A program made the position numbers and the translations under genes. Positions 30,815 through 55,868 of a stretch of DNA of 64,000 bases are shown piece after piece. The stretch spans positions 425,001 through 489,000 of the forward strand of contig CAJNDT010003546.1 of assembly GCA_905221615.1 (NCBI GenBank), read 5' to 3'. The DNA is from Symbiodinium sp. CCMP2592 (taxonomy: Eukaryota; Sar; Dinophyceae; Suessiales; Symbiodiniaceae). Position 1 is the stretch's first letter. Every line of letters starts with the position of its first letter. The notes beneath the pieces are model-generated. The model worked only from the letters and a program-made list of their open reading frames with translations. It was not told where the DNA came from and ran no database searches.

Positions 30815-30943
30815 AGGTACTTCCATGGGACTTAGTAACTAGGGTTATAACTAAGGTAACTGTACTTTTAATTACTTATAACCCCAATTAGGGGACTTAT
30901 AACCTTACTTACTAAGTCCCATGATCCTTTAAGTATCAGGTAC
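30815..30943 (-). mobile_element. Fold-back element family G, copy in reverse orientation
   Basis: The inner sequence matches family G read on the minus strand. AGGTAC occurs at both ends (30,815-30,820 and 30,938-30,943) and could be a short target duplication. Confidence 0.8.
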
Positions 30944-34085: not shown

Positions 34086-34368
34086 TATCTGTGCGGTCAC
34101 CCACCATGCCCATCATGAGATACACCCTTTGTGGCAGAAGCATCCCTCATGGACACTAGAAGAGGCACAACTTCCTCGGAGAAACATCCCATAACCCCTA
34201 GATCCTGAACCCTTATAACCCTTAAGCCAAAATTCCCAAACTCGCGCCTGGAAATCCTAGACCCTTTTGCTAAAGCCTACAACCCTAATTGTGAGCCGAA
34301 CCCTAAACCCAGCCCCAATGCGTGCACCTTCGGAGAAGCCGGCGCCTCCTGGAATCCGTCGCAGGGCT

Positions 34369-34968: not shown

Positions 34969-36192
34969 TCAGTTCTTCTTCTTCTTCTCGAGCTTGCGCT
35001 TGTAGAAGTTCAGCTCCTGCTTTAGGGTTTAGGGTTCAGGGTTTAGGGGTTTAGGGGTTTAGGTTTAGGGTTTAGGTTTAGGGTTTATGGTTTAGGGTTT
35101 AGGGTGGTCGAGGTTTAGGGCCCGAGGCTACCCAGAGGTTGCAATACCCCTTAATTAAGGAATATACCTTCAATCATAATATTAAGACCCTTATAACTTA
35201 AGGTATATTCCTTAATTAAGGGGTATTGGGTTCTCTGGGTGGAGGCCTTCAGGGCCTTAGGGCTTTGTGGCTTCAGGGCTAAGAGAGAGCAGTGGTCTGG
35301 GCCCTTCGCACTGGGGTGTCCCACAAAACCTTGGAAAAAATCCTGAGGGTTTAGGGTTTAGGGTTTAGGGATCTGCTGGCTTTCGTGCGTTTGTGGACCT
35401 GGCATTCCAAAGGAAGCTTCAATGACTTCTGCTTTAACTTCCGCAACCCAAACTCTCAAGCCCCAAACCCTACACTCCAAACCCAAGCACGAACCCTCAA
35501 CCTGAAGCCAAGATCCCCAAACCCTCAATTTAGATCTCTCGCGAACCCTCCAAACCCCACTCCCAAAATTCATGTAAACCACTCAAAAGAATCCTACGAA
35601 CCTCCAAACGAATCCTACGAACCTTCTGAATTTCTAGAAGCAAAGCCCACGAGGCCACAAAAACCTCAGCGGGCCTCGCCCTCCAGGACGTAGCCGTCCG
35701 CGCGGCCGCACTGCCCAGGCCTCGAGGCGAGGCGTTGTGTTGAATGTTAAAAACCATATTGTTCAGGGCTTTTGTCTTTAGAGTTTAGGGGTTTCAGGGT
35801 CTAAGGGTTTAAGGGCTTAGGGTTTAGGGCTTAGGGTTTCGGGTTTAAGGTTTAAGGTTCAAGGGTTCAGGGTTTCGGGGCTTAGGGCTCCAGGTTTGGA
35901 GCATCTAAAGCGTGCCTCGAGGCGATGCAGGCCAACAGTCGGCCGCTCTGGAACTGCTCCTCAGGGGGGGGGGGGTCTTAAAGGGATCTAGAAGGGTTCC
36001 TTAAAAGGGATCTATAAGGGATCTAGAAGGGTTCTATAAAGGGATCTATAGGGCTTCCTTTACAGGGATCTATTAAGGGTTCTACAAAGGATTTAAGGGG
36101 TTTAGGGTCTGGGTTTTAGGGTTTAGGGCTTTAAACTTGAGGGCGTTCGGGTTTTAGGGTTCGGGTTTTGGGTTTTGGGCTTTGGGGGTTTT

Positions 36193-36237
<45 letters not shown>

Positions 36238-39200
36238 CTCTATCTCTTTCTGTCTCTCTCTTCTTGGTGGGCTTTTTCAGGTTTACGGAAGTTTAGGGCT
36301 TAGGGGACAGTGACAGTCTACAAGAGGGCTGCCATTCAGGGCCTTATATATCTATATTTCACATGTTATTCAACCGCTACCGCATGGAAGGGGGGGCAGT
36401 TTCCAAAGGCTCTCGCTCTCTCTGAAAATGGTGGGTTGGGGTTCAAGGCTTCTGCTTGGGTACGGCCCCCACTCAGTAACAGTTGAATAATATTCATAAT
36501 ATAGATATATTAGGACCTTACTAGTAGCCCTATTATAGACTCTTACTGACCCTAAACCCTAAACCCCAAAACCCTAAACCCTAAACCTAAGCTTCTGCGT
36601 TTAGGGAACTCTCTCTCTGAACTCTCTCTCTCTTTCTCTTGTGGGCGGTCCTGGGGTTTGTGGGCGGTCCTGGGGTTTCGAGTTTGGGGGTTTCCCGGTT
36701 TAGGGTTCAGGGTTTAGGGTTTAGGGTTTAGGGTTTAGGGTTTAGGGTTTAGGGTTCAGGGTTTAGGGTTTAGGGTTTAGGGTTTAGGGTTTAGGGTTTA
36801 GGGTTTAGGGTTCAGGGTTTCGGATTTAGGATACAGCGTGTAGGGTTCGTGTTTTGGTAGAGGGGGGGGAGTGTGAAGGTTACTATAAAGGTTTCAGGAC
36901 CAGAAGGACTGCCAGAAGTGGTTACCATGAGAATAGAAGCTAAGAGTTGCTATAAGTTTTGTTTGGGGCTTAGGGTTAGTGGACAGGTTGCTGTAAAGAT
37001 TCCTGCCAGGACTACGCTGCTCTCGGTGTCTATCAAGGTTTGGTGGGGATGAAGATGGTTCTTATGAGGGCAAAGCAAATGCAGCGCAGGAGTCATAAGA
37101 TAGCGTCAACCCTAAATACTAGGATCCTTCCAATCAGAGCGCCAAAGCAGACACCTCCTTCGCGGCTGACCAATTGGGTAAGGTATAACAAGGCCTTCAT
37201 AATTTTGACGAGCTTTGCGAGAACGTTGTAGCGTAGTTGTATAGAGTTTTTTGTAAGGGGATACTACTGTTGATAATATAAATCCTGCATTACCTTAAGG
37301 ACCCTAAACTATGGGAATTATGGTATATCCCTTATTCTAGGTAATGCAGGATTTATATCATCAACCGTATCACCTCGGCCCCAAACCCCGAGGATGCCCC
37401 AAAGTCCCGACGACGTCCTCCAGCAGGGTGTCCAGCTTGGTCCTGAGCGACGGGGCTCCGCACTGGGCCAATCGGTCGTATGATACAGTTTAGAGGTTGG
37501 GGTCTCGGGTTTGGAAATTCGAGATTCTCTTCAGTAGGCCAGCCTCGACATAGACTACCAGGCAGCATAAGGTTTAGGGTTCAGGGTTCAGGATCGAGGT
37601 TCCCGGACAGGCAAACTCCCCACTTAAGCCAACCCTAAACCCTAAACCCCAAAAACTCACACACCCCTAGATACATCTGCGGCCTTAGAGCAAACCCCTG
37701 AAACGGTTTAGGGCTTGGGGCTTACTTAAAGGCTCATGGGACAAGTTACTAGGGGACTTATAACCTTACTTACTAAGTCCCATGATCCTCCAAGTAGGGC
37801 TTGGGGACAGGAGTTCTGGACTCGACACCCGCAAAAAACACAAAAACACGACCCCATGAAACCTTCTGGACGGTTCACTGCTCTTTGGGGGGGGGCGGAA
37901 GATTTAGGGTCTACTCAGAGGATCATGGGCGCTTCTAGACAGATTGTAAGTAAGGCGATCACTGCACCATGACGGCTTGCTCCTGCAATTAGTTAAGGTG
38001 CTGACACCCCAACTCTTGTATGTATGTATGTATGTACGTATGTATGTGTGTATGTGTGTATGTATGTATGTATGTATGTATGTATGTATGTATGTATGTA
38101 TGTATGTATGTATGTATGTATGTATGCGCGTGTGTGTCTGTGTGTGTGTGTGTGTTTATATGCGTGTGTATATAAGTATATACATATATATATATATAGA
38201 CATGTGCGTATATAGGTGTATACAGATATACACATGCACATATGTGTATATATATACATATATACATATATATATATATACATATATACATATATACATA
38301 TATATATAAATATATGTGTCTACCGCTGAACCTTAGAGCAAGGCTTGAAGGCTTGAAGTTTTGGTGCCTGTGGGTTTAACCTAAGGCCAAGGTGCTTGGA
38401 GGCACGTGCCTTCTGCTTTGCGATGACATGGCGGCTCAGCTTGACCTACCCGGAACTTGACTCCCAGTCCCATGGCTCCCTAAACCCTAAACCGTAAACC
38501 CTAAATCCTAAATCCTTAACCGTTGTAGTGGTCTGGGCCTCGGGGTTTTGGGGCGTGGGGCTTTGGGAGAGTACTGGAGGGCTTCTCGGGGCGAAGAGGT
38601 GGGAAGGAGGGACCCGGGACAATCCTAAACCCCAACAAGGGTGACGGGATCCCAACAACGCAGAACACCCGCCAAAAGCCGTGGTTGGTTTCCCAAACCC
38701 TAAAAGGAACCCCTAGACCTCAAAAAATAGGGTGTTTAGGTTCCAAACCGTCCAAAAACCTGAACTTAAAGGAGTAAGTGGCTCCCCACACCACAGACCC
38801 CTCAAAATGAGTTGCCAGCTCGAAAAGCCCTCAACCTAAACAAAACTAGAACAAAAGCCGCAACACTAGTAGAGTATGGTGGGCGGAAAAAACCCTCACA
38901 GGTGCGGGCTGTTCGCAAACTTTACTGCACCGATCAAGCTGGGTCTACTACTATCTACCTACCTATCCATCTATCTGTATATATATATATATATATATGT
39001 ATGTACCCCAAAAAATAGGTGCCGTACTATATAAGCGACCCAAAAAAAGGACCATAATTTCGACAACCACCCATATATATATATATATATATATCATACA
39101 GTTCAACACCACAGCAGCGCCTCCTCCTTTTCCTCCTTCTTCTCGGTCTTGTCACCTCCACAGAAAGCTTCAAGTTGAGGGGGGGCCTCCGGCTGAGGAG

Positions 39201-42200
39201 GGCTTCGGGTTTAGGGGAATAGCTAACCAGTGGTTTTGGGGGCTCCCTTGGCTCTTTAGCTCCTTAATGGCTATTCTCATCATCCCTGGCTCCTTAGCTC
39301 CCCGAATATCAATGGTTAGATAGGGTGTAGGGTGTTGGGTTTAGGGGTCTGGGTTCAGGGTTTTGGGTGTAGGGTTTCGGGTTTGGGGGAGTAGGGTTGA
39401 GGCTCCGATGCCAGGCAAACCCCTAAACCCTACCCGAAACTCAACCCCAACCATGAACCGTACATCTCAAAATCCTAAGCCCCACACCCTACAGCCCCAA
39501 AACCCTCAAACCAGGGGAGAAAAGGGAGGCGGTCTCCAAAACCGTGGTTGAGCGATACGAGCCAGAAAAGCCCTTCTTCAGAGCCCCGTAAGCCTTTTAT
39601 GAACTCTACACCAACAAGCTCTGACCCCCCAGGAACCCTAACAACCCTAAACCCCCACACCCCTAAACCCTCTCGCACCACGCCTAAACAAAGACACTAC
39701 AAGGAGAGGAACGGTTGATGATATAAATCCTGCATGACCCATTATAAGGAATATACCATAATTCCCCTGGTTTCGGATCCTTAAGGTAATGCAGGATTTA
39801 TATCATCAACCGAAGCAAAAAGAGATCCCCCAAAGGGCCTCCCTTCTTCTTCTTGCCAAGGTCGACTCCATACTTCTTCTGGTAGTACTGCATGAAGGGG
39901 TGGGCATCGATCCTCGGGGAAAAGGACCCGAATATAGTACCCTAAATAGTAGGATCCTTGTTATAAGGACCCCAAAAGAAGGCAAGGTAGCCCTAATTTC
40001 GGAAACTCTTATCCGGAGTTCTTGGAGGAGGATTTGCAGCAGTCGTCGTTCAGCTTTTGTTCTCACACTCCTTAGGGTTTAGGGTTTAGGGTTTAAGGGT
40101 TAAGGGTTAAGGGACTTCAAGGGTTCTGTGCCCTATTATACCCGAACGCCTAAAACTGAGACACAAACCCTAGCAGGCCTTGCTAAAGGGGTTTTGTACC
40201 CTCGACCCAGGGGCGCTACACTCTACACCCTAAACCCAAACCCTAACGTTGCTTTGAAGGGCCTGGTGGCCTCAACCCTAAGCCCCAAACCACCCCCTAG
40301 CCAAACCACAGGAATCCTTACTTGAGGTAACCTTACGAACCTACAACCTTATATCGCCCTTACAGCCCGTAAATGTTTTAAAGCAACCCTGGAGGGGTCG
40401 TGTAGCTGGGTCCCTATGGATCAAAGTTGCTGGACGACGGTGTTCTTGAGCCTGGGACATCCGCAGCTCCAGGGTTCTTGAGGGGTGGAGAGTTTGGGGT
40501 AAAGATCCACTGGGCTTTAGGATTTCAGGGTCCGGGCTGTTGGAGAGCATTGATCGTTGATTCGGAGCTGCTGGTTCTGTTCACGATGGGCCCTTCCTGC
40601 CTCGTCAGGCAACAAGACTACACAGCTGCCTTCATTCGATACTCAGGAAACCTTAAGCTGGTACGCCCCTTCGGGGGGTTGTCCAGGGCTTGCGTGGTGT
40701 GTCATAACACTCTTGTAGCTCTGTAACGTTTAGAAAGTTGACACAGTTGTTTTAGGAGCTGGCTTCAATGCATTGCTCCAATACCTGTGGTAATACTGTC
40801 AATGGGAAAGATGCCACGAATACGGTCAATGGCAACCAGGATTGCATTCTGAATACGGTGATTACGGGGTCGAAACCAAAGCAGAGTATGAGCAGAGAAT
40901 GAAGGACTACGACAGGGCGCACGCATGGGTTGAGAAACTCAGGTCAAGAGGTTTCAAAATCCCTTGATTAAGGAATATACCTTAAACTATAGTCGGGATC
41001 CCTAAAATGATTCAAGGAATATTCCTTAATTAAGGGAGATTGGAAGGTCTGGGAGGTCAAGAGGTATCGGCCCAGCGTTAGGAAAGCTTCCTGTCATGGC
41101 GAGTCGGGCGAGACGGCTTGGAACCCATCGAGGGGGAGATGGGAGCTTCCAAGAATTAGGGGGTACCCTATTTTGGGGGTCCTTATGATAAGGATCCTAC
41201 TGTTTAGGGTACTATATTATTTTCGGAAACTCCCAGATTGGTTGTGGAGAAGAGAGCGAAGAGGAAGCAAGGGACAAGGATGAGGAGGTTGCACTCGAGG
41301 CTGAGACTCTGGGAAAGCACGCATAAGCACCGCTGCACTGATGACATCAAGGACGGTGGTCAGGAAGAGGAGGGAGTCAACAATGCTGACACTGGCGCTA
41401 CAAAAAGATGATGATGATGGTGGTGATGATGATGTTGACGATGACGGTGAGGATAAGGATGAGGAAGAGGATGATGCTGATGATGACGGTGATGAATATA
41501 AGATGACGATGACGATGATGGTGGGAGCGGCAGTGATAAAGATGATGACGATGACGATGACGATGAGGATGAGGATGATGGTGGTGGGATGATGATGAGG
41601 GGGATGACGATGATGATGATGATGATGATGCGAGTTGACGGCGAGTGCGACCTTCATGGTGATGATGGCGGCGAAGATCTCAGTCTAACTCTTGATACAT
41701 ATGTGCCATCAGCAAAACCCTGGTGATTGATGGAATGCTAGTTTGGTGCGCTTCCTGCGAGTAGTATCATCGCCATTTTTCAGGATCAGGCGTAGGTGTC
41801 GGCTACACGGCTACATGTAGGAAAAAGTTATCTGCCCCTGGTAGAAGCACCAGAAGCCTGATTGAGCTGCTTTCAAAATCGTTCATCGTTGCTGCAAAAG
41901 TTGCAAGGGGCCCCCCTTTGCTGTTGCGATGGTGTCGTGATGGAGATGTCTTTGTCGATTAGACTACTTACGAACACTGCTGTCGCCATATCATGGTGCT
42001 GCCTCCGATATAAATGTTCCAGCGATCCCTGCGCATTGTTCTGAAGAAGGCTTTCTTTTCGGACTATTTGCTGAATTATTGGCACCGGTACTGCTCATAA
42101 CAGTGGAAGCCGTCCGGCCAACCTCGGAAGTGGGTCTAGGTGCCCCAAGCGCTAAATCATGACCTAGACCCTCAGCCTTCAAAACCCTAAACCCATAAAC

Positions 42201-44489
42201 CCTAAGCAGCCCTGAACCCCCAAAGCCTCAAATACGAAACCCCCAAACCCTGAACCGTAACGAAGCTCCCTTTATCAGCTCAAGGGGCAAGGTCTTCGTG
42301 CGCACCAACTCGTTGCTCGTGGCGTTGTAGACCACGTCCAAAATCCTCACCTGGGGGCGAAGGCTTCATTCATAGGCGTTAAGGGATCCAAACGGGACCT
42401 ACAAGGGTTCTATGTTGGGTTTAGGGGTTTAGGGCTTCGAGGTTTGGAGCTTCGAGTTTCGGGTTTCGGGTCCCGAGGATCAGGAGTTAGAACGGTCTCA
42501 GCTTGGGTTCACAGTCCCTTGTGGTAGACCCTGTCGTGGTAAACTCCCTTGAGGATGAAACAGAAGCCGGAACAGGTAGATAAGGCTGTAGTGTATAGTG
42601 TCCTACCGTCGTCGTAGTAAAGTCGTTTTCGCACCAGCGGTGGTAGCAGTCGTAGTCGAATCGTACACTATTTTTATATGGCATAACAGTAAGAGCTAAC
42701 GAAACCGGGCCTTCTTGGCAATGTTCTCGGAGCCCCAGGCGTAGTTGCCGGCGTCCAGGCGCAGAGCGCGGTACTTCCTAGGCACTACCACTACAAGCCT
42801 TTACATTCCCATGACTACCACTACTTCCTTAGCATCATCACCATCATCATTATAAGCAACACCGGTGCTATCACCAGCACCAGCAGATAAATAAGCCAGC
42901 TTCGCCAATGTCCCCGGCATCATCACCATCTCGCTGACTTCATGTTCGTCTTTGTGGTGTGCCTTTGCCTTCGGTTCTATGATCATACAAACCCTGCATT
43001 ACCCATAATAAGGAAGATACACAATTTCCATAGTCTTGGGTCAATAAGGTATTCCAGGATGTATATCATCAACCGTTGTACTGGCAGGTTATGTGAACGT
43101 GCAGTTGCCCAAAGACCAACCCCCCCCCCCCACCCCAAGTCCTCTCCAGTGCGATATACTCTGCCCTGGGCCTTCAAAGCACTGCAAACGCCAAACCGCG
43201 ATTTTTGTTGAGGGTTTGGGCTTCTTTTTTGTTTAGATGGGCTCTTTTCCGGCTGCAGAACAGTTAGAAATCCTTAGGTTTGGGGTTTAGAGTTTAGGGT
43301 TGTGCTGCTTGAGCTCTAAACAGGCACGCCAGGACCTGAAACAAAAACTTGCAGAATCTCCAACCGCGGGACGGCCTTCCTCCCTTATATCACTCCCCCG
43401 AAACTTTCATCCTAAATCTGAAACCCCGAAAACCCTCAAGCCTGCAACTATCTGAAATCCTAAACCCCTAATCCCCTAAACCCTGACCCCCTAAATCCAT
43501 AAACCCCTACCTTAGCATCTTCATCTTTCGAAGTTGCTTGTTGCCGCCGCGGCAGCGGACGACTCGCACCTTAAGCAGCTCAGGGTGTAGGGCTTCAGTT
43601 TAGGGTTTGGGGGTTTAGGGTTTAGGGCTTAGGGCTTAGGGTTTAGTAGGGCTTAGGGTTTAGTAGGGCTTCGGGCCCCGTGGCTGAGGGACTGCTGGGG
43701 TCGGTTTACACTGTGGGCTTTGGGGTCTTAGGCAAGCCGCTTCTTCTGGAATGAACGCGACCCGCATAGCCCCGAGCTATATAAAAGAGCCGTTGATGGC
43801 GCAGCAACGGCAGTCAGTTACGATCTGGGTAGTTGCAGCCCCTGTTGCGCTCTAAAGCCTAAACCTCAAAGCCTCAAACCCAAACTGCCAAACCCGTCTA
43901 GGTCCTAACACCCACCAAGCCATAGAAGAATCCCCTGCAGATCCGTCATAGAATCATAGAAGCCTTAAAGATCCTTCATAGAACGCTGCAGATCCCTCAT
44001 AGAACCCTCATGGAACCCCTCAGATCCCTTCTAGAACCCTCCTCGATCTCTTATCGATCCCTCATAAAACTATCCTGGATCCCTTATAGATCCCTCATAA
44101 AGCCCTCCTAGATCCCTCATAGGCCAGGCCCTTTAAGGAATCCCTCCTCGATCCCCTATCGATCCCTTCTAGAGATCCCTCATAGAACCCTCCTCGACCC
44201 CTTATAGATCCCTCTAAAGGAACCCTCACGGATCCCTCTAAAGGAACCCTTATACATGCCTTTAAAGAAATCCTTATACATCCCTTTAAACGAACCCTTA
44301 TAGATCCCTTTTAAGGAACCCTTATAGATCCCTTTAACGCAGCCTTTATGTGCATCCAGAGGCCCCCCCTGTCTGCCGGGAGACGCGCTTCGGGCCCAGC
44401 TTGCAAGGCGTGGCCGGGCGGCCCATCTCATACTTGCGCTTCTTGATGGAGACCTGTCAGGCTTTCTTTAAGGGTTTAGGGTCTAGGGG

Positions 44490-44559
<70 letters not shown>

Positions 44560-44900
44560 CAGTAGCAGCAGTAGTAGTAGTAGTAGTAGTAGCAGCAGCA
44601 GCTGCAGTAGTAGTAGACCTGTCTGGTTTAGGGTTCAGGGTTTAGCGATCAGGAGATCTGCATGATATACGATTCTTGCTGCATGATATACTGTAAAGTG
44701 ATGCTCGTAAGTACTATGATATACTGCACCATGGGCTGGAGGGATTATTATTAATGTTGTTATTGTTATTGTTATTGTTATTGTTATTGTTATTGTTATT
44801 GTTATTATTATTATTGTTATTATTATGATTATTATTATTATTACTATTTTTATTCTTATTATTATTATTATTATGATTATTATTCTTAATATGATTATTC

Positions 44901-44943
<43 letters not shown>

Positions 44944-44981
44944 GATTATGATTATGATTATGATTATGATTGTTATTATTA

Positions 44982-45035
<54 letters not shown>

Positions 45036-45860
45036 TTGCTTATTATTATGATTATTATTATTATTACTACTACTACTACGATTATTATTACTACTATTAT
45101 TTTTATTGTTTTAAGTCCAAGGTGCAGGGTTGATAACCCTAAGGGCTCCAAGCTTGCTTCTGGTCTGAGGTTGATATACAGGGTTTAGGGTTTAGGGTTT
45201 CAGGATTTAGGGTTTAGGGTTTAGGGATAGTCTCATTGAGATCTAGAGCAAAGCGCCCTCCTACGGCCAAGCCAGGACACGACATCGAAAAAGCGCCGAA
45301 GGGCCAATGCCTATTATGTCGGGCCTGCATGCTTGGAATGGGGTTGTGGGATGTATTCGGGTATCATGATATTGATCGTACTACAGATTACACCGAACCC
45401 CCTATTTAGATGCGAGGTGCTGCAGGCTGGAAAAAACCCGGGCCTCGTCACGAGTCAACTCAAAGCCCTCAAACCCTGAACCCTTCCCCCCACCCCCCAC
45501 GGCCCCAAAACAATCAAAACTCAAGGCTTTGTAGGCCAAACGAAAAAGCCTGAAGCTTCCAGGAACATCAATAGCCACACAGACACTTCGCACGGCGGTC
45601 TGAGCCCAAACACCTCATTTCCCGGAGACTTCTGAGCCCGGAAAGCCTTAAGGCCCTAGATCCTGAACTGCCCAAACCCCTCCCTAAACCCTAAACCCTA
45701 TACCCTAAGCCCCATACCGCATACCCGATACCCTATATACCCTAAACCCTATACCCTATACCCTCAGCCCAAACCCCTCAATACCCTCAACACCGCGGGG
45801 CACATTGCTACGGCCGCCGGTCTTGTAATGCTTGTGCCGCGAGTCACGGGAGATTCCCAT
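34969..45860 (-). CDS. RPS8: Ribosomal protein S8 (eS8), 13 exons, complete
   Basis: Component of the small ribosomal subunit. Exons, 5' to 3' on the minus strand: 45860-45804, 44453-44385, 43569-43538, 42777-42706, 42345-42289, 40600-40583, 39912-39842, 39155-39121, 38445-38414, 37442-37418, 35959-35916, 35720-35675, 35016-34969. They join in frame to 606 nt, 201 residues plus TGA; other eukaryotes have about 205-210. It starts [16 protein letters not shown], contains [56 protein letters not shown] and [14 protein letters not shown], and ends [12 protein letters not shown]: hallmark eS8 sequence throughout. Donors are GT, GC and GA; every acceptor is AG|G. Introns range from about 195 to 1,690 bp and hold telomere-like tracts, microsatellites and fold-back elements. 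Exon 6 (18 nt) and a few junctions are the least certain; exon 9 could instead stop at 38417. Confidence 0.93.
35025..35110 (+). repeat. Telomere-like tract ending at the RPS8 last-exon acceptor
   Basis: On the RPS8 strand the intron ends with CCCTAAACCCTAAAGCAG directly before the last exon, so a C-rich telomere-like run takes the place of a normal pyrimidine tract. Confidence 0.85.
35131..35239 (+). mobile_element. Fold-back element family D, copy 1
   Basis: Inverted ends CCCAGAG/CTCTGGG outside and AATACCCCTTAATTAAGG inside, in RPS8 intron 12. Confidence 0.85.
36195..36260 (+). repeat. CT dinucleotide repeat
   Basis: About 17 CT units followed by imperfect CTCT runs, in RPS8 intron 10. 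Confidence 0.95.
36698..36830 (+). repeat. Telomere-like TTTAGGG array
   Basis: About 18 near-perfect heptamers with three TTCAGGG variants, in RPS8 intron 10. Confidence 0.95.
37266..37370 (-). mobile_element. Fold-back element family A, copy in reverse orientation
   Basis: Ends CTGTTGATAATATAAATCCTG and CAGGATTTATATCATCAACCG. It lies 47 bp inside RPS8 intron 10 from the exon 10 donor. Confidence 0.85.
37721..37799 (-). mobile_element. Fold-back element family G, internally deleted, with 10-bp direct repeats
   Basis: Family G ends with a shortened middle. GGGCTTGGGG lies at 37,711-37,720 and 37,797-37,806, a likely target duplication. In RPS8 intron 9. Confidence 0.75.
38019..38330 (+). 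repeat. GTAT, TG and TA microsatellite cluster
   Basis: About 25 GTAT units, a TG run, then TA/ACAT units. It lies just beyond the exon 9 donor in RPS8 intron 9. Confidence 0.95.
39712..39812 (+). mobile_element. Fold-back element family A, best-preserved copy
   Basis: Nearly perfect ends CGGTTGATGATATAAATCC and GGATTTATATCATCAACCG, 29 bp from the exon 7 donor in RPS8 intron 7. Confidence 0.9.
39913..40015 (-). mobile_element. Fold-back element family C whose end forms the RPS8 exon 7 acceptor
   Basis: On the minus strand the family C sequence (GGATCCTACTATTTAGGG then ATATTCGGGTCC) runs directly to TTTTCCCCGAG|G, the acceptor of RPS8 exon 7. The last 12-15 bp differ from other C copies, which end TTTTCGGAAACTCCC. 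Confidence 0.75.
40941..41065 (+). mobile_element. Fold-back element family D, copy 2, with 12-bp direct repeats
   Basis: Inner ends CCCTTGATTAAGGAATATA and TATTCCTTAATTAAGGG (one mismatch). AGGTCAAGAGGT occurs at 40,941-40,952 and again at 41,054-41,065. In RPS8 intron 5. Confidence 0.8.
41148..41233 (+). mobile_element. Fold-back element family C, copy
   Basis: GGTCCTTATGATAAGGATCC palindromic centre and right end TTTTCGGAAACTCCC. In RPS8 intron 5. Confidence 0.8.
41395..41640 (+). repeat. GAT trinucleotide-rich tract
   Basis: Imperfect GAT/GAC/GAG units; the acidic open frame over it is an artefact. Confidence 0.9.
42972..43075 (+). mobile_element. Fold-back element family A, diverged copy
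   Basis: Left half degraded (CGGTTCTATGATCATACAAA), right half intact (GTATATCATCAACCG). In RPS8 intron 3. Confidence 0.75.
43925..44345 (-). repeat. Degenerate array of GATCCCTTATAGAACCC units
   Basis: Some 20 variants of a 15-20-bp unit (GATCCCTCATAGAACCCT and similar). The reverse complement recurs at about 35.98-36.09 kb and in the arms of the long palindrome at 47.5 kb. In RPS8 intron 2. Confidence 0.8.
44490..44610 (+). repeat. GTA trinucleotide repeat
   Basis: About 30 GTA units with a few GCA interruptions, in RPS8 intron 1. Confidence 0.95.
44745..45115 (+). repeat. TTA/TTATTG trinucleotide-rich tract
   Basis: About 370 bp of ATT with GTT and GAT variants; all overlapping poly-N or poly-I open frames are artefacts. 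In RPS8 intron 1. Confidence 0.95.
45181..45230 (+). repeat. Telomere-like tract
   Basis: TTTAGGG units with one TTTCAGG variant, in RPS8 intron 1. Confidence 0.85.
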
Positions 45861-45872: not shown

Positions 45873-45989
45873 ACGAGGGTTTTTCCTTTGGTTAGTAGGG
45901 AATGGTAAGGTTCCCTTTAAGGGGGTCTATAAGGGGTACTATAAGGGATCTATACTTGCCTTTGGTGGAGCTCCTGCGAGGTGTTTTCG

Positions 45990-46120
45990 TTTGGGGTCGT
46001 AGGGGTTTCGGGCTTCGGGAGTCGGGTTTCGGGTTTAGGGTTTAGGGTTTTAGGGTTTCCGTTTTAGGTTTAGGGTTTCGAGTCGGGTTTTAAGTTTAGG
46101 GTTTAGGGTTTAGGGTCTAT
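45990..46120 (+). repeat. Degenerate telomere-like tract
   Basis: TTTAGGG with TTTCGGG, TTTTAGG and TTCGAG variants. Confidence 0.75.
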
Positions 46121-47125
46121 CGACGACTGCTTAGGTTTCGAAGGCTTGGGCACTCTTGTATGGGGGGTGTCGGGTTTAGGGTTTCGGCGCGGAATCTAGG
46201 ATTTGCGGTCCGGGTGGGGATTCGGTTCAGAGACTTGCTACTGTTCAGCAGATGGGATTGCAGTTGTAGAATCACTTGCGGGAAGACTTGGTCCTACCGG
46301 CTTACCGTTCTCATCCTCGTGCTCGAGAATTAAGCCATACCCTATCATCCGAGAATTCTCCTACAGGAACGAACTGTCCAGGATTCTACTAGTAAGGTCG
46401 GTATAGAACCGGCGGAACTTGTCTCTTATGACCAGTACAAACAAGGGCCAGAAGCCCAGAACAGCAGGTTTCTGCAGGTAGGCAGGCAAAGCCTGGCCTG
46501 TGGTTCGAAATAGCCCGAAAGCCATGTACGGCACGGTCCCCTAATGATTCCTTACAGCCTTCGGCTTAGAGCTCTCGATATGAGGCAGCCCCGAATCAGG
46601 GATAAGGCGTTGAGAATCGGGCGGGCGGGTATATCGGAGACCTTCCTCCCAAAATCGTGGACCCCACACCTCAAACCCAAACCCGAAGACTGCCCGGGCA
46701 GTCCTTGAGTTTCACTCGCTGCAGGTGTTCCAAAGATTCCGTGGCCACTGCTTTGAACCGGAACGGCCCCCGTTGCGGCGGCGTCGCTCTCAAGAGGCTT
46801 CGAAACCACTATCCGCGGACTCTTACAGCAATGCCTCGTGGGCTCTATAAGGCCCTCCTCTTTTTCAAAGCCTGTAAAAACTTCGGAAAAATCTCCAGAT
46901 CAACCGGCGAGGCTTGGATGCTCAGATTCGCGGCCCAAATTTCCATGCGATGAATTTCGGGCCTCTTGTGTTTGGGGTGCAGGATGTGAGTCTTAGTTGA
47001 GGGCCAACTGACCATGTACTTGGGAGTTAACGGGGTATTCAAGCTTCAAACCAAATTCCCCCAGATGCGGCTATCTTCAAGCGCAAACGAGATTTGTCCT
47101 AAACCCTAAACCCTAAACCCTAAAC

Positions 47126-47169
47126 CGACGGTGCTCCGCCGAAAAGCCCTGAAGCCAAGGAGCCACAGC
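47126..47169 (-). CDS. Candidate orphan exon bounded by AG|G and a telomere-like donor
   Basis: Minus-strand block between acceptor ACTCGAG|G and donor CG|GTTTAGGGTTTAGG. More than one frame is open (one reads LWLLGFRAFRRSTV), so neither frame nor product is settled. Its value is the splice context: the donor would be the first base pair of a telomere-like tract. Confidence 0.2.
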
Positions 47170-47194
47170 CTCGAGTCTTCAAGGGAAGGGAAGG

Positions 47195-47287
47195 GTTTAG
47201 GGTTTAGGGTTTAGGATTTAGGGTTTAGGGTTTAGGGTTTACGGTTTAGGGTTTAGGGTTTAGGGTTTAAGGTTTAGGGTTTAGGGT
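47195..47287 (+). repeat. Telomere-like tract
   Basis: About 13 TTTAGGG units with TTTACGG and TTTAAGG variants. Confidence 0.9.
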
Positions 47288-47432
47288 TTAGTAGGGAATG
47301 GGGGAATGGATCCCTATAGTAGTCCCTATTTCGGGTTTGGGGGTTAGGGTTTACGGTTTAGGGTTTAGGGGTTAGGGTTATAGTCGTCCCTACATAATCC
47401 CAAACAACAGTCCCCATAGAACCATTCCCCCA
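47288..47432 (+). mobile_element. Fold-back element family F, split by a telomere-like tract
   Basis: The left end AGTAGGGAATGGGGGAATGG and the right CCCTACATAATCCC to CCATTCCCCCAT match the intact copy at 30.56 kb. A 50-bp telomere-like tract (47,329-47,378) sits between TATAGTAGTCCCTA and TATAGTCGTCCCTA. Confidence 0.8.
47329..47378 (+). repeat. Telomere-like insertion with 14-bp flanking repeats
   Basis: About seven TTTAGGG-type units between near-identical 14-bp repeats (47,315-47,328 and 47,379-47,392, one mismatch). Confidence 0.8.
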
Positions 47433-47454
47433 TCTCCTTTTAAGAACCAGACAG

Positions 47455-47773
47455 GGGCTATCGATACCCTAAGACCCCTTATAGAACCCTTACAGAACCC
47501 TTTAAAGGAACCCTTTAAGCCTTTAAGGAACCCCATTCCCTTTTATCATAGGGATCCTTAGGGGTGTAGGGGGAGGGGGGTAGGGGGCCTTAATGCCCAT
47601 AATAAGGACTAATAAAACCTATTATTTAAGGAAATATAGTCCCCTACACCCCTCCCCCCTACACCCCTAAGGATCCCTATGATAAAAGGGAATGGGGTTC
47701 CTTAAAGGCTTAAAGGGTTCCTTTAAAGGGTTCTGTAAGGGTTCTATAAGGGGTCTTAGGGTATCGATAGCCC
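47455..47773 (+). mobile_element. 319-bp near-perfect palindrome flanked by 17-bp direct repeats (family E)
   Basis: Arms of about 125 bp begin GGGCTATCGATACCC and end GGGTATCGATAGCCC. The core is about 70 bp (GGGGGCCTTAATGCCC). TTTTAAGAACCAGACAG lies at 47,438-47,454 and 47,778-47,794. No coding capacity. Confidence 0.88.
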
Positions 47774-48972
47774 ATGATTTTAAGAACCAGACAGTCAAGT
47801 ACCGAGAAGCGCTCCGGTGTGTCCGCTCCCGAGCTCCCCGGCTCTTTGTCGCCTGAGGCGGTCCCAGGGTCTCTTTGGCAATCTGGGGCCCCTAAACCCT
47901 AAACCCTAACCCCTAAACCCTAAACCCTAGGCCCTAAACCCTAGGCCCTAAACCCTACCTTAACCCCAAATAACCTCCCTTTTTAAGGACTTATGTAAAG
48001 AAATCAGATTAGGGAGCCCTAAAAAGGTAGGTTCCTTAGGGTCCAGGTAAACCCTAAACCCTAAACCGCCTTAGAGATTCCGGTCTCGTCGGCTTCGGGT
48101 TTTTAGGGCTTTCAAGGGCTCTCCAGAAACCAGAGACCCATTGGCCCCTCCTGAACCCTCAACTCCCAACCCTCTCTCCCGAGCCTTTACTCAAAAAGGG
48201 GAAAAGGAGGAGGGACCCCTACCCTATAATGGGCTATATAATGGGTATATACTAGCTATTTTAAGCTCTTTTGTGGTCCCTCTATTTAATGGCTCAAGCC
48301 CAAACGGATGCTAAAAAAGGCAGCTGAAGGATTCGTAATCCATCATCTTCCCTTACAGTGCCATTTTAACTAGGATACCCAGTAACCTAAGAATAAAAAG
48401 GCCTCTCTTTTTGGTATTGGGTAACTTTATAAGGAACCTAGGACTACAAAAAGGGAATAAGGGTACTACTGGAGATCCTAGTTAACTATTGTAGAATATA
48501 CCCCCAAAGCCTTGCTCTGCATGCTAAGGCCCCCCTCTCCCATGCCGCCGAAGGAGCGGGGCTCTTCGGCAGGTGCCGGCATGGCTGGCGCGTTGCTGAT
48601 GCTCTTGGGCTCTACAATTGCGCGTGGTTCAGGGTTTATTAGGGTGATGGGGCTGTGGATTTGATGTTGCGGATTTCGGCGGTATTTTGGGAGGCTTGAA
48701 TCATTGCAATAGGGTTCTGGGTATAGCCTGCTATAGTCATAATAGGGAGAATCGTGAAGAATAGCCTGAGTAAATCTCTCAGGCCCCTGCGTTAGTTAGC
48801 TTTAAAGGTCGGGGCAAACCCTAAACCCTCAACCCCTAAACCCTAAACTTTGGAGGTCGGGGTTTTGGCGTTTCGGTGTCGGGACCTTGAGCATTCGCGA
48901 CGGAATCGGGCGAAGCTTGAGCTTCCGAGGGTCTTCAGGGTTTAGGGTTTAGGGTTCAGGGTTTAGGGTTTA

Positions 48973-49540
48973 GGGTGTGTCACAGTGCCACGGCGCGCCC
49001 CACCCATGGAGTGGTCGTGGGTCGCGCCGTCTTCGTAACGTGGAACCCACCCACAACCACCCGAAGCAGGACTAGAACGGGTTTTGTGTTCTGCTTCTTC
49101 TTATTCGAGTGCTGCACTAGCCGAAAAGACGTTGCAATGTTGCGGAACGTCAAAGGGACATCCGAGTGATGTAGTCACAAAATAGCAGCGACGCCCTCGC
49201 TCGTCCTCGCCGGCCGCCAGAGTCGTCCGTCAGCCGTCGTCAGAGTCGTCCGTCAGGGCCCAGTGCCAGGCCTCCAGAAGTGGTCTGCAGCCGTCCGCTG
49301 TCCGTGCCAGTCCGGCCAAGAGTGCTGATCATCCAGTCGGCCGCCAGGGTTTTTTCGCCCGGCAGTCCGTGCCAGAATTGTCCAGCTTTGCCGCCAGACT
49401 CGCACTCCAAGGTCCTTGCCAGAGTCGGCCACGGCCCCCAAGCTCTTTCTAGGACGTCCCGTCCCCGTCAAACTATAGTCGTCAGCCGCCAGAGACGTGA
49501 AACGGACATTTCCGCCTGGCCACGGCACTGTGACACACCC
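48973..49540 (+). mobile_element. 568-bp GC-rich element with 17-bp terminal inverted repeats
   Basis: It starts GGGTGTGTCACAGTGCC and ends GGCACTGTGACACACCC, an exact 17-bp inverted repeat. The interior shares phrases such as CAAGCTCTTTCTA and GTCCCGTCCCCG with the GC-rich block at 50.2-51.3 kb. I found no transposase and no clear target duplication. Confidence 0.65.
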
Positions 49541-49749
49541 TGTACAGTGACGGAGCTAAGTCGCATCATGCTTGTTGGATCCCAGCCCACCTTGCGGGGA
49601 AGCACCCGGGGGGGTCGCATCACCGGGCGTCTACTTGGGGATACGTGATTATGTTGATTCGGGAATATTGAGAATTGAGTGCTGAAGCTGAATTTACAGC
49701 AATTTACTTGCAGATTCGTTCTCTCTGTGTTGCTTGGTGCTTGCTGTGT

Positions 49750-50075
49750 GCTTGCAAAATCGAGCGTCTACATGGGGAACGGCTGGTTTTTGTTTGCTGT
49801 TTGATTCGACGTCGCTGATGTATTTCTGGAGCGGGCGCTTGCTAAAGCGAGCGTCTACATAGGGAATGGCTGGTTTTGATGTGCTGTCCGCTGCGATGCC
49901 ACTGATGTGTTTCTGGAGCGGGTGCTTGCAAAATCGAGCGTCTACATGGGCAACGGCTGGTTTCATGGGCTGATTGCTGCGATGCCCCTGATGTGTTTCT
50001 GGAGAGGGTGCTTGCCAAATCGAACGTCTACATGGGGAACGGCTGGTTTTCATTTGCTGTTTGATGCCTGGCCTG
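49750..50075 (-). repeat. 87-bp minisatellite, 4 units
   Basis: Units start at 49,750, 49,837, 49,924 and 50,010. The minus strand is open through three of them and reads HVDARFCKHPLQKHIS; the 86-bp step shifts the frame of the fourth. Coding status unknown. Confidence 0.85.
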
Positions 50076-50189
50076 TTCCTCAGAGGGAAGGACGACGAAC
50101 CGTCCACACCAGAAAAAGCTTGTTTTGCGTCTTTACTTAAGAGAAGGACGACGAACGGGCCCCGCAGGTTGTCCGCAAAGCTCTTTTTG

Positions 50190-51290
50190 GAGGAACTGGG
50201 TCCCCGCAGGGTCACCCCGCTGTCTCCGCCAGGGTCGCTTGGTCAGGGTCGCCGTCCCCGCCAAGGTCCTTACGCCGTCCTTGCCAGGGTCGTCCGCCGT
50301 CCCCGCCACGATCGCCCGCCGTCCGCGCCAGGGTCGTCCGCCGTCCTCCAGAATCGTCTGCCAAGCTGTTTTTGGCCTTTTTAGTTGCTGTCAAAGCCAA
50401 GTGCCCGCCAGAGTGTCCGCCGTCCCCATTAGGGTTGCCCGCCGTCCCCGCCAGGGTCGTCCGTCTGCCAAACTGTTTTTGGCCTTTTCGTGCCTGTCAA
50501 AGTCATCGCCAAGTCCCCACCAGAGTTGTCCACCGTCCCCGCAGGGCCGCCGTCCCGTCCGCCATCCCCTCCAGAGTCTGCCAAGCTGTTTTTGGCTTTT
50601 TCAGTCCCTGTCAGAGTCGCCAAGTCCCCGCCAGAGTCGTCCGCCGTCCCCGCCAGGCCCGCCGTCCCCGCCGGTCGTCCGCCGTCCCCCTCCAGAGTCG
50701 TCTGCCAAGCTGTTTTTGGCTTTTTTAGTTGCTGTCACAGCAGAGTCGTCCGCCGTCCCCGCCAGGGTTGCCCGCCGTCCCCGCCAGGGTCGCCAAAGTC
50801 GTCCGTCCACCAAGTCCCCGCCAGGGTCGTCAGCCGTCCCCGCCAGAGGGCTCGCCATCCCCGCCAGGGTCGCTCGTCAAGCTCTTTCTACCAGGTCCCG
50901 TCCCCGCCAGGGTTCTCGCGCTGGGAGATAAGGCGCCATCCCCTCCAGAGTCATCTGCCAAGCTGTTTTTGGCTTTTTCAGTCCCTGTCAGAGTCGCCAA
51001 AACCCCGCCAGAGTCGTCCGCCGTCCCCGCCAGGGTCGCCCGCCGTCCCCGCCAGGGTCGTCCGCCGTCCCCCTCCTCCAGAGTCGTCTGCCAAGCTGTT
51101 TTTGGCTTTTTTAGTTGCTGTCACAGCAGAGTCGTCCGCCGTCCCCGCCGAGTCGCGCGCCGTCCCCGCCAAAGTCGTCCGTCCACCAAGTCCCCGCCAG
51201 GGTCGTCAGCCGTCCCCGCCAGGGTCGCTCGTCAAGCTCTTTCTACCAGGTCCCGTCCCCGCCAGGGTTCTCGCGCTGGGAGATAAGGGT
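50190..51290 (+). repeat. GC-rich complex tandem repeat
   Basis: Dominated by GTCCGCCGTCCCCGCCAGGG, with a longer repeating block containing GCCAAGCTGTTTTTGGC. Two blocks of about 340 bp are near-duplicates (about 50.59-50.93 and 50.95-51.29 kb). Several long Arg/Pro/Ser-rich open frames cross it only because stop codons are rare. Confidence 0.9.
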
Positions 51291-51424
51291 ACCCAATTTT
51301 ACTATTGTGCCCCATGGCTAGCAGTGCCAAATCAGGTCTGGTAGACTCGATCTGCTTGGCCAAGCAAGCAGATCTCGAAGCGGTAGCGTTCAGTGGTACC
51401 GGCCGCCGCCGGGCGCGGGCGGCC

Positions 51425-51575
51425 AATGGCTTCGGGTTTAGAGTTTCGGGTTTGGGGTTTAGGGTTTAGGGTTTCGGGTTTAGAGTTTCGGGTTTAGGGT
51501 TTAGGGTTTCGGGTTTAGGGTTTAGGGTCTCGGGTTTAGGGTTTAGAGTTTAGTGTTTAGGGTTTAGAGTGTGGT
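51425..51575 (+). repeat. Telomere-like tract
   Basis: TTTAGGG alternating with TTTCGGG and TTTAGAG. Confidence 0.85.
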
Positions 51576-51616
51576 CGTGAGGTTGAAAGTCGCAAAGAAA
51601 AGGATTCAGGGACCTC

Positions 51617-51700
51617 AACAAGTAGAATAAGTAGAACAGGGTTTGGTGCTATAGTTCTTACTCATACGAGGAAACCCTGCGCAATAGCATTCGTAAAAAC
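51617..51700 (+). mobile_element. Fold-back element family B, degenerate copy
   Basis: CAAGTAGAACAGGGTTTGG at left and GAAACCCTGCGCAATAGC at right. Confidence 0.5.
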
Positions 51701-51851
51701 ACGATCCGAGACTATCCTCATAATGCACCCTAGTATGCAACCCCAACTGTAGAGTGTCGGTTTTTTTGCGATGCACCCCAGTGTGCAACTCAATTGTAGA
51801 GTGTCGGTTCGGGCCGGAGGTTGGGCCGTTAGGCCACAGGTCCCCCATCAT

Positions 51852-51953
51852 GGGAGTTTCCGAAAAGCAGGGGTGCCTTATTCTGGGGTCCTTATAATAA
51901 GGATCCTACTATTTAGGGTACCATATTAGGGTCCCCTATTTTCGGAAACTCCC
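51852..51953 (+). mobile_element. Fold-back element family C, well-preserved copy
   Basis: Ends GGGAGTTTCCGAAAAGC and TTTTCGGAAACTCCC with the central palindrome CCTTATAATAAGG. Confidence 0.88.
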
Positions 51954-52641
51954 ATATGTTGACCTGGACTTATAAGCCGGTTGTCCTGAAACGCAATGCC
52001 TCATATCTCCGGACCCGCGAACAACGAAACAACCATAAACTGGTAAGATGCCCCACCACATGAGTACACCCAAAGCAGGCTTGGTGTTTAGCGAAGCGCC
52101 CTTGAGCGGATGCTTTCTCAAAGATTCAAACTGAGGCTTCACTTTGCACATGCCAATGACCATGTCACCTCTGATTCTAAATCCTAAACTCAAGACCTTG
52201 AACCTAGCAGACCACAACCACAATTGTGCAAGAGCTCTTTCCGTCGAATGCGATCTGCTGCAGCGTCGAAACGGGAACAGTCAGGAGGTTCGGCCCATGC
52301 GGTCTTAGAGCTTTGGGCAGACAACAGACCCCCGATCATTATAGGGTCCCGTAAATCTATACTGGTTTTATCAGCCTTCCCCAAGGGACTACTATATAGG
52401 GTCTGCAAGATGTCTTTGTTACGCCTTTCTTCTGCTGCCCAGAGTCCAAAAGCGACTTTTGCTAGGGCTAGGTGTTATTGGCATACATATAAGCATCGAT
52501 CATTCGTATCATCACTCTCCACCTCATATTTCTAGTCGCCGGCCAATGCCCCCCGCATCATCATCGTCCACATGCCCGTCATCTTCACGTGCAGAACCCC
52601 CCTGTCTCCCGGCTGTTTCACCTGAGTATTCTACGACTACT

Positions 52642-52745
52642 ACTGTTGATGATATAAATCCTGTATTACCCATAATGAGGAATACACCATAATTCCCCTA
52701 GTTTAGGGTCCTTAAGGTAATGCGGTATTTATATCATCAGCCGTA
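52642..52745 (+). mobile_element. Fold-back element family A, copy
   Basis: Ends CTGTTGATGATATAAATCCTG and ATTTATATCATCAGCCG; middle matches the 39.71 kb copy. Confidence 0.85.
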
Positions 52746-52768
52746 CGACTGCCCCAGCATTTGGCTCC

Positions 52769-52882
52769 TCATCCTCCCGGTTTCTCCATGAAGCTGCGTA
52801 GGTCTTCCTCACAAACCTCCTCTTCTGCACGCGGCACGAAAGCTGCACTCAGGTTGCAAGAGTCCACATCTTGAGCCAAGGG
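52769..52882 (-). CDS. Candidate terminal exon, C-terminus of an unidentified protein
   Basis: Thirty-seven codons ending at TGA (52,769-52,771), with RAEEEVCEEDLRSFMEKPGG as the last residues. The sequence is acidic, not repetitive and GC3-rich. The upstream boundary is AAG|C rather than AG|G and abuts a telomere-like stretch, so the exon start is uncertain. It could be the last exon of the minus-strand gene whose exons lie at 55-61 kb, but phase cannot be linked. Confidence 0.3.
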   Translation of the reverse strand, partial: PLAQDVDSCNLSAAFVPRAEEEVCEEDLRSFMEKPGG

Positions 52883-53087
52883 CTTCAGGTTTAGGTTTCT
52901 CAAAAATCTTCAGCTATAGAATCTGCACAAAACTCTTATAAATCATAAGCCCCAAAAAAAAAATGACACTCGGAACTCTCCACCCGGCCGCAACTCTCCC
53001 TTCTGATCCGCTTCCGGGCTTTGGCTGCCAGCGCGGCGCGCGTGCGCGCCCAGGGGCTTTGGAGTCGTGTGGGTTTTGGGTTTATTT

Positions 53088-53189
53088 GGGAGTTTCTGAA
53101 AATTAGGGGTACCTTATTTGGGGGTCCTTATAATAAGGATCCTAGTATTTAGGGTACTATATTAGGGTCCCCTGTTTTCGGAAACTCCC
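53088..53189 (+). mobile_element. Fold-back element family C, copy
   Basis: Ends GGGAGTTTCTGAAAATTAG and TTTTCGGAAACTCCC. Confidence 0.85.
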
Positions 53190-53199
53190 ATTTGAGGAC

Positions 53200-53960
53200 C
53201 TTTTTCCAGCTGCAGAACAGTTTAGGGTTTAGGGTTAGGGGTTTAGGTTTGTAGGGTTTGGGATTCAGGGTTTAGGGTTTGGGAGTGAGTTTACGGGTTT
53301 AGGTTTAGGGCTTACGGTTGATATGCGGGCGTTCAAAGCTCGAATAGAGTTTTCCATCAGAGTTCTCTCAATGGCTCTACAAGGGATCTATAAGGGTTTA
53401 AGAGTGTATACAGGGGTCGCAGAAAATTCTGGTATGTTATTTCGGCGAGGAGCCTTTCTTTAGGTGATGTAGGGTTTAGGGTTTAGGGCTTAGGGTTTAG
53501 GGTTTAGGTGCCTCAAGAACTAGAAGTATGGGGTTCTTCTAGATCTTGCAGAGGGTTTGGGGGTCAAGGGTTTGGAGTTTCGGTGTTTGAAGGTCTAAGG
53601 GCTCTAGCAAGTTGGGGTTTCGAAAGATTTTGTCGGGGAGCTGGCATTGTGGATACTCAGAGTATTCAGGTATATCCCCGAAGCAAAAAAATTACAGTCG
53701 AGGGCCTACTTAAAGGATCATGGGACTTAGTAAGTAAGGTTATAAGTCCCCTAAATGGGGTTATAAGTAATTATAAGTACAGTTACCTTAGTTATAACCC
53801 TAGTTACTAAGTCCCATGAGCCTTGAAGTAGGGAGCATTCGTTGATTGCGGTGTATTGGAAACCCCCGCCTGCTCTACCCATGCGTGTCTAGATTTATAA
53901 GTCGGTAGGGGTTGAGGGGTTAACCTTCCAAGGCAATCTAGAGGCCATAATAGGGTTTTG
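53200..53960 (+). repeat. Segmental duplication, copy 2 (partner 20,681-21,440)
   Basis: Same order of telomere-like start, unique middle and family G element as the partner, with only scattered substitutions. Confidence 0.92.
53705..53833 (+). mobile_element. Fold-back element family G, copy within duplication 2
   Basis: As the 21.18 kb copy, with one base difference in the loop. Confidence 0.85.
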
Positions 53961-54707
53961 GGATATATTCTACTATAGGGTTTGGGGATATATTCTACTA
54001 TAGTTATAACAAAGAGCCCCCAAATATGAGGATAGGTTTTGGCATATATTCAACTATAGTTATAACAAAGAGCCCCCCGCAAATATGAGGGCTTTCGCAT
54101 GCTTAGACTTCCGGAGGGCGAGGAACCATGGCCCCTGGGCCCCCTTCGCGCTCGTTGCCATTAACAGACGGGTTTAGGGTTTAGGGTTTAGGAACCCGAA
54201 TCTGCACGGAAAGAGCAGCTGATGAAAGGTCATAGTCGGTTCTCTTGCACTTAAACCGTCGTATAGCAGCATCAACAACAACATCGGGGTTGGTGGGTTT
54301 AGGTTTCGGTACACCGTGAACATTCAACTCTGAACCTAAACTCGGAGAAAGCTAAACAACTTGGTTGTTCGTCAAACCGCGTGCGGAAAGGCTTCAGGTC
54401 ATGTCCGAACCTGGCAAAGTAACTGCCACGATTCAGGGAATCATAAACCCTAAAGTAGGTCTTAAGCCCTGGGCAAAACTCTCCCCCCCCCCCCTTACTC
54501 AAGGATTACAATCGCAGGGTTCCGCGAACCCTGCCAAAAACCTTCAAGGCCCTAAACATCGCGAACTGAAAAGGCTAAAACCCCTGGACCATAAGATACC
54601 ATAAGGCCAAATGCTTCTGAGGCTTGGCGCCCACAACGAAGTCGAAGTGCCCGTGTCCCAGTGCTCGAAATCCGAAATGACACATCCTGAACCCCTATTT
54701 CTAATAT

Positions 54708-54804
54708 AGGCGCCAACTTTAGTAGAATAGGATTTGGGGGCCATTCTACTATAACTACACTGTGGAACCCCCAACATAGCATTTGAAATTATTAAGGCCC
54801 CTAT
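54708..54804 (+). mobile_element. Fold-back element family B, copy
   Basis: Left end ATAGGCGCCAACTTTAGTAG, inner GGAACCCCCAACATAGC, right end AAATTATTAAGGCCCCTA. Confidence 0.75.
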
Positions 54805-54954
54805 CCCTAAACCTTACGATCCTGAAGGGGATCCTCCACCAAGGGAACTGTGGGAGTCTCGCCAAAAAATTTGCCCGGAAGGTATCGACCCCCAAGCAAC
54901 CCCGAACGGCAAACCCAAAAGCCCTGGAGTCCTTACACGCCCTGCATCCTAGCG

Positions 54955-55040
54955 CTAGACCCTAAACTAAACCCTAAACCTTACATCCTAACCCTAAACC
55001 CTGAACTAAACCCTAAACCCTAAACCCCAGAACCCTAAAC
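54955..55040 (-). repeat. Telomere-like CCCTAAA tract
   Basis: CCCTAAA with CCTTACA and CCCTGAA variants. Read on the minus strand it starts GTTTAGGG at the donor of the exon candidate on its right. Confidence 0.85.
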
Positions 55041-55108
55041 CCTGGGTGCCTCCCTGGCCAGAAAGTTCCACCAGGCGCAGTTCTTGGCCTCGCGGCGCTG
55101 TGCTGCAC
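55041..55108 (-). CDS. Candidate exon ending on a telomere-like donor
   Basis: Two bases plus 22 codons between acceptor GTCGAAG|G and donor AGG|GTTTAGGG. The GC3-richest frame reads AAQRREAKNCAWWNFLARE, which resembles the last helix of a double-stranded-RNA-binding domain (KKEAKN-A-W) but is too short to assign. Other frames are also open. Confidence 0.3.
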
Positions 55109-55726: not shown

Positions 55727-55748
55727 TCTCTTTCTTAGGGGCTGAGTA

Positions 55749-55852
55749 ATACAGGGGCCTAAATGATTAGAATAGGGTTTTGGGGCCCAATAGACTGTAA
55801 TTATAATAAGTAGCCCACAAAATAGTATAGGTCATTATCTAGGCCCCTATAT
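55749..55852 (+). mobile_element. Fold-back element family B, well-preserved copy
   Basis: Ends AGGGGCCTAAATGATTAG and GGTCATTATCTAGGCCCCT, inner AGCCCACAAAATAGTATAGG. Confidence 0.85.
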
Positions 55853-55868
55853 TACCCTAGCTCGAAAC

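Follow-up and report, generated by a model that had tools for sequence, protein, structure and literature searches.

A complete eS8 (RPS8) coding sequence in 13 short exons, with GC-rich donor usage, in DNA of apparent dinoflagellate origin

Does a stretch of DNA interspersed with telomere-like repeats encode an intact ribosomal protein, and if so, how unusual is such a gene? Within the window analyzed here (one continuous stretch of 64 kb), positions 45860..34969 on the minus strand contained a complete coding sequence (CDS) of eS8 (RPS8), which was divided into 13 exons and extended over 10,892 bp from ATG to stop. With a transcriptome-derived protein (P0004) as a guide, the corrected CDS had 630 nt and coded for 209 residues. 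An initial annotation of this locus had reported 606 coding bases in 13 exons over 10.9 kb and a complete S8 of 201 residues. The number of exons, the span and the presence of a complete, intact RPS8 agreed with our model, whereas both lengths were too short when compared to P0004. The annotation was right that no single open frame reveals the gene and that ORF-based annotation misses it: the longest stop-to-stop frame holding any of the exons had at most 56 codons.

Assignment to the eS8 family was based on several lines of evidence. The protein matched Pfam family PF01201 (Ribosomal_S8e) with an E-value of 4.1e-48 and 163.4 bits (cut-off 30.2), and the equivalog model TIGR00307 of NCBIfam with 130.8 bits (cut-off 78.25). 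These curated S8e models thus scored over their cut-offs along the length of the protein, and the chain from start to stop was colinear with known eS8. P0004, a 209-residue protein representing a cluster of five sequences that come from MMETSP transcripts and from JGI, with a contig of 987 nt, was listed among the homologues at 98% identity. The spliced model could be aligned with it free of gaps, and 207/209 residues were identical; the only differences were A76V in exon 4 and T131A in exon 8 (A76 and T131 in the window, V and A in P0004). A tblastn search with P0004 matched all 13 exon places, in the same order and on the minus strand throughout. E-values were 0.003 or lower for 11 exons, 0.88 for exon 10 and 25 for exon 6.

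All exons are on the minus strand. Exon 1 (45804..45860, 57 nt) begins with the start codon at 45860, corresponds to residues 1-19 of P0004 and is followed by a GT donor, as are exons 2 (44385..44453, 69 nt) and 4 (42706..42777, 72 nt). GC donors follow exons 3 (43538..43569, 32 nt), 5 (42289..42345, 57 nt), 6 (40431..40451, 21 nt), 11 (35916..35959, 44 nt) and 12 (35675..35720, 46 nt) and, after the corrections described below, exons 7 (39839..39912, 74 nt), 8 (39121..39155, 35 nt) and 9 (38396..38445, 50 nt). Exon 6, the smallest, codes for LKNTVV and for a Gln that is finished across the junction, as in P0004. Exon 10 (37418..37442, 25 nt) has a GA donor and precedes the sole GA-AG intron, and exon 13 (34969..35016, 48 nt) ends with TGA. 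The exons were 21-74 nt long with a mean of 48.5 nt (18-72 nt, mean about 47, in the initial annotation). The 12 introns had lengths of 195-1837 nt (mean 855 nt). Their donors were GT in three cases (introns 1, 2 and 4), GA in one (intron 10) and GC in the remaining eight, i.e., 25%, 8% and 67%, respectively, in a sample of only 12 introns. All 12 acceptors were AG|G.

Three of these donors differ from a shorter model, which we rebuilt to fit the totals of the initial annotation; that annotation gave neither exon coordinates nor strand, and the rebuilt model (exons of 21-72 nt) may not be identical to it. In the rebuilt model, exons 7, 8 and 9 stop early at GA dinucleotides (39842, 39124 and 38414). 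On the basis of P0004 (GKKKKGGDK for exon 7, EEKEEVK for exon 8), these exons were extended to GC donors at 39839, 39121 and 38396, which added one, one and six residues; exon 9 itself had been located by reading the sequence. Thus, the occurrence of GT, GC and GA donors and of AG|G at all twelve acceptors was as initially described, while three individual donors were misplaced, and the several GA introns (four in the rebuilt 606-nt model) were reduced to one. The junction of this intron 10 can be placed in six ways without altering the mRNA. The intron was kept as GA-AG because the other placements lack a terminal AG, and because an alternative GT donor 3 nt downstream would introduce an additional Asp absent from P0004.

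Could such a chain have arisen by chance, a permissive reader having joined short open pieces where there is no gene? Many spurious chains are indeed possible when exons are short and the donor rule is loose, and a first alignment with a distant guide, human RPS8, recovered most of the chain and put some of the middle exons wrongly. However, splice-aware alignment of P0004 (donors G[TCA], acceptors AG|G) reached a score of 961, with a ceiling of 965 for 12 introns, whereas the same procedure gave scores of 74-109 in nine controls (the plus strand, the reversed sequence, three other stretches of the window and four shuffled proteins). Together with the match to P0004, these scores refute a chance assembly, the probability of which we consider negligible. 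The exact closure of the frame, previously taken as support, was observed but is no proof, because the 606-nt model closes in frame just as the 630-nt model does. With its in-frame closure and AG|G at every acceptor, the 201-residue model with several GA donors might represent the true mRNA or an alternative isoform, but it is eight residues shorter than P0004 and has lost most of the stretch KQKARA(A/S), which the nine other homologues fetched carry (KQKYLAS in P0042). We therefore regard it as very unlikely.

The most serious alternative left is a different RPS8 copy as the source of the transcript, with the copy in the window being a silent, intron-retaining paralogue that is decaying or unused. 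Because of the A76V and T131A differences, P0004 could stem from another copy or strain, and residue 76 is Val in P0004 and in 9/9 other homologues fetched but Ala in the window only. On the other hand, the frames of all 13 exons and all 12 splice signals are intact, GC3 of the exons is 0.88 and they contain no stops. In addition, no second RPS8 copy was found in the 64-kb window, since all tblastn matches outside the exons had E-values of 1.2 or worse. A silent paralogue appears improbable, though less so than the shorter mRNA. We conclude that, with high probability, a Symbiodiniaceae-type dinoflagellate has at this locus an intact eS8 gene of its nuclear genome, spliced across 12 introns to give a ribosomal protein of 209 residues. 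The exon set, the splice dinucleotides, the intactness of the gene and its near-identity to a transcriptome-derived protein are direct observations. Expression of this intact gene would involve transcription from right to left into a pre-mRNA no shorter than 10.9 kb, from which the spliceosome would remove the 12 introns, accepting GC, GT and occasionally GA donors and depending on the AG|G acceptor. The mRNA would presumably receive a spliced leader, as in dinoflagellates generally, and its 209-residue product would enter the 40S subunit of the ribosome as a small-subunit protein. RPS8 may serve as a worked example of dinoflagellate genes that are lost to annotation based on ORFs or limited to GT-AG introns. 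It also illustrates a pitfall: where exons are short and donors loosely defined, a model can stay in frame and still be wrong, here at 3/12 donors, until a transcript-derived protein is compared.

We further analyzed the lineage of the gene in a quick tree of 27 sequences, including the window copy and 26 of 120 listed homologues (SH-aLRT support only, no bootstrap; 11/24 inner branches open). The window copy grouped with P0004 and then with P0005, within a set of eight sequences (SH-aLRT 97). This set included Effrenium, Durusdinium and a sequence tagged symbB, which we take to be Breviolum minutum, while Polarella and Prorocentrum were outside. The placement among named Symbiodiniaceae suggests that this eS8 is of dinoflagellate descent and that the DNA is from a Symbiodiniaceae-type dinoflagellate. 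A search for a full-length relic of the spliced leader (21-nt form, up to three mismatches) found none in the window. A 12-nt piece of the leader occurred at three places in the window with at most one mismatch (0.5 expected by chance), none of which was upstream of the RPS8 start. The site at 34221-34232 on the minus strand, TTTTGGCTTAAG, has one mismatch to this piece and shares the strand of RPS8, approximately 740 nt beyond its stop; the site could have arisen by chance or be a leader relic ahead of a downstream gene.

Other parts of the window were examined as well. Coding-like segments (score of at least 12, complexity filter, Copia region excluded, RPS8 region excluded on the minus strand) numbered 58 on the plus strand and 64 on the minus strand. 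A subset was chosen by hand without a strict rule for a search against solved structures (36/58, one of them trimmed, and 42/64); mostly repetitive segments were omitted, along with some non-repetitive ones. No match indicating another cellular gene was found for these 36 plus-strand and 42 minus-strand segments up to E=1, whereas the same search with 12 segments of the RPS8 region, as a positive control, recovered eS8. Outside the Copia element, the segment of the filtered list that scored highest as coding was an open piece of 117 residues at 63364-63714 on the minus strand, which had no Pfam match above the cut-off (best 15.7 bits); by resemblance, it is possibly part of another retroelement. 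In a GC-rich region at 49748-51433, there were tandem repeats of 87 bp and 22 bp as well as long open frames that overlap and occupy both strands, and two ORFs tested from it matched no Pfam family. Pieces given to Pfam yielded nothing above the cut-off, and neither tRNA genes nor Rfam families at gathering score were found in the window.

A Ty1/Copia-type element occupies positions 1-8400. Its first ORF contains a 42-bp tandem repeat (PGVQAGNLPQHPSV repeat, 337-869, approximately 98% uniform). Another ORF, 5164-8334 on the plus strand, has a predicted 2OG-Fe(II) oxygenase domain in its N-terminal part (5164-5850, plus strand), between integrase and reverse transcriptase. An HxD...H...R motif was present in this domain, which is conserved in four homologous proteins. 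A low-confidence structural model matched the AlkB/PHD2/TET-like fold, and the TET/JBP match in Pfam was below the cut-off (E=0.041). The domain may possibly be a DNA-oxidizing enzyme carried by a dinoflagellate retrotransposon, and is possibly more novel than the RPS8 gene.

Three MITE-like families were also observed. Members of one, about 100 bp long with long terminal inverted repeats (TGATaATATAAATCCTGCAT-like) and 74-90% pairwise identity, occurred at 9965-10073, 37262-37373, 39711-39812, 42980-43080 and 52641-52745. A second, palindromic family was found at 21184-21311, 30824-30935 and 53705-53832 (and as a partial copy at 37750-37799); because its copies are up to 98% identical, it was probably active recently. 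The third family was represented at 39924-40012, 41139-41241, 51850-51965, 53087-53201 and 56075-56190, and the copy within RPS8 intron 6 stops 11 nt short of the acceptor.

Telomere-like repeats, defined as 14-mers that match two TTTAGGG-like units with no more than two mismatches, were present in all 12 RPS8 introns. Their coverage was 12.7% over the gene span, 11.1% at 8.4-34.9 kb and 11.7% at 45.9-64 kb, but they covered 0.0% of the Copia element (1-8400) and none of the 630 exon bases; coverage was also 0 in three base-composition shuffles. The view that the gene shows this filler to be intronic was therefore overstated, as the similar coverage of the gene span and its flanks indicates a regional background that is not specific for introns. 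In the flanks (8401-34900 and 45900-64000), G-strand copies exceeded C-strand copies on the plus strand by a ratio of approximately 1.7-2.4, and the flanks are possibly a subtelomeric or telomere-seeded region. According to PMC11453091 and PMC11508785, TTTAGGG is the dinoflagellate telomere repeat. Within the open literature searched, the available parts of PMC7789003, PMC11453091, PMC11508785, PMC7023079 and PMC9498494 do not describe telomere-like repeats in dinoflagellate introns or chromosome interiors.

Intron 11 (35721..35915, minus strand) was both the shortest (195 nt) and the telomere-richest (45%) of the 12 introns. A perfect 12-nt direct repeat, TCGCCTCGAGGC, spans both of its splice junctions, compared to repeats of 1-5 nt at the splice sites of the other 11 introns and of no more than 7 nt in 132 mismatched donor-acceptor pairs; random local pairs reach 12 nt about once in 9,000. 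From its sequence, intron 11 resembles an insert flanked by a duplicated target. One could speculate that in this lineage degenerate telomere repeats added at break repair are a raw material for new introns, intron 11 being a caught example in which the 12-bp duplication gave an AG|G boundary at both ends, but we consider this improbable. If true, repeated use of such a telomere-insertion route would explain why the exons have half the usual dinoflagellate length. A general rule that telomere-like blocks carry target duplications was not supported: repeats of at least 12 nt flanked 1/157 blocks (intron 11 itself) versus approximately 0.5 expected, and repeats of at least 9 nt flanked 7/157 versus approximately 2.7 expected. 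An introner origin of most introns was also rejected, because their end stems did not exceed the 95th percentile of controls and the MITE-like palindromes were not flush with splice sites. In this test, which scored perfect stems, the longest end-to-end inverted repeat was 5-8 nt in the 12 introns, and 300 random segments had a mean of 5.6, a 95th percentile of 8 and a maximum of 19. High exon density together with a telomere-like intron with a flanking duplication offers a specific, testable lead on intron gain in dinoflagellates.

Several known systems resemble parts of this locus. Mammalian interstitial telomeric sequences inserted at double-strand breaks (PMC7215372) are likewise telomere-like repeats inside chromosomes that occur in introns but are absent from exons. 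In contrast to the mammalian sequences, the repeats in the window are degenerate TTTAGGG, account for approximately 11-13% of the non-Copia sequence and have flanking repeats that are not clearly enriched across the 157 blocks. Dinoflagellate introner elements (PMC9860276, PMC7789003) are introns inserted as DNA whose terminal duplications serve as splice sites, and the duplication of intron 11 resembles these. They differ in that no RPS8 intron has a stem above the 95th percentile of controls, that eight hand-picked MITE-like copies (introns 3, 5, 6, 7, 9, 10 and 12) are at least 11 nt away from the nearest splice site, and that the duplication measures 12 nt, whereas PMC9860276 has 3-9 bp and, for S. 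microadriaticum, 4 bp. In PMC11782384, all of 213 introns (213/213) are described as having direct repeats at their borders or close by, with lengths of 4-30 bp and a mean of 11.4, and the repeats are interpreted as remnants of insertion. The border repeat of intron 11 is comparable, but those repeats were allowed anywhere within up to 80 bp around the borders, while in RPS8 only intron 11 has a long repeat in exact register with both splice sites. The insertion reading of intron 11 is weakened by these repeats at all 213 introns and by the frequency of repeats at the 157 blocks, which was hardly above chance.

The closest counterparts are genes of Suessiales. For Symbiodinium natans, Durusdinium trenchii, Cladocopium proliferum and Polarella glacialis, Table 2 of PMC10666404 gives 23.6-36.6% GT, 43.6-58% GC and 17.4-19.8% GA donors and 96.1-97.1% AGG acceptors. 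These genomes have 11.6-17.2 exons per gene, mean gene lengths of 8.8-16.2 kb, mean introns of 486-1408 nt and mean exons of 99-120 nt. According to a 2024 review (PMC11453091), 25-74% of introns in Symbiodiniaceae are GC|GA-AG, and introners drive intron gain in dinoflagellates. The RPS8 locus is similar to the four genomes in its donor mix (3 GT, 8 GC and 1 GA), AG|G at 12/12 acceptors, 13 exons, 10.9 kb and mean intron of 855 nt, and its donor and acceptor profile is compatible with them; GC (8/12) is somewhat high and GA (1/12) low, in one gene with 12 introns. A literature search for dinoflagellate microexons gave no relevant work. With a majority of GC donors alongside GT and GA, AG|G acceptors and a protein of apparent dinoflagellate descent, the locus has the features of Suessiales-type architecture. 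The gene described initially as hidden in junk is real, although its architecture is no novelty, published Suessiales genomes (PMC10666404) being alike. The RPS8 locus is a fresh example of an already known gene architecture, typical of Suessiales, and what stands out in it are its short exons, with a mean of 48 nt against the 99-120 nt published, and intron 11, the splice sites of which carry a direct repeat of 12 nt.
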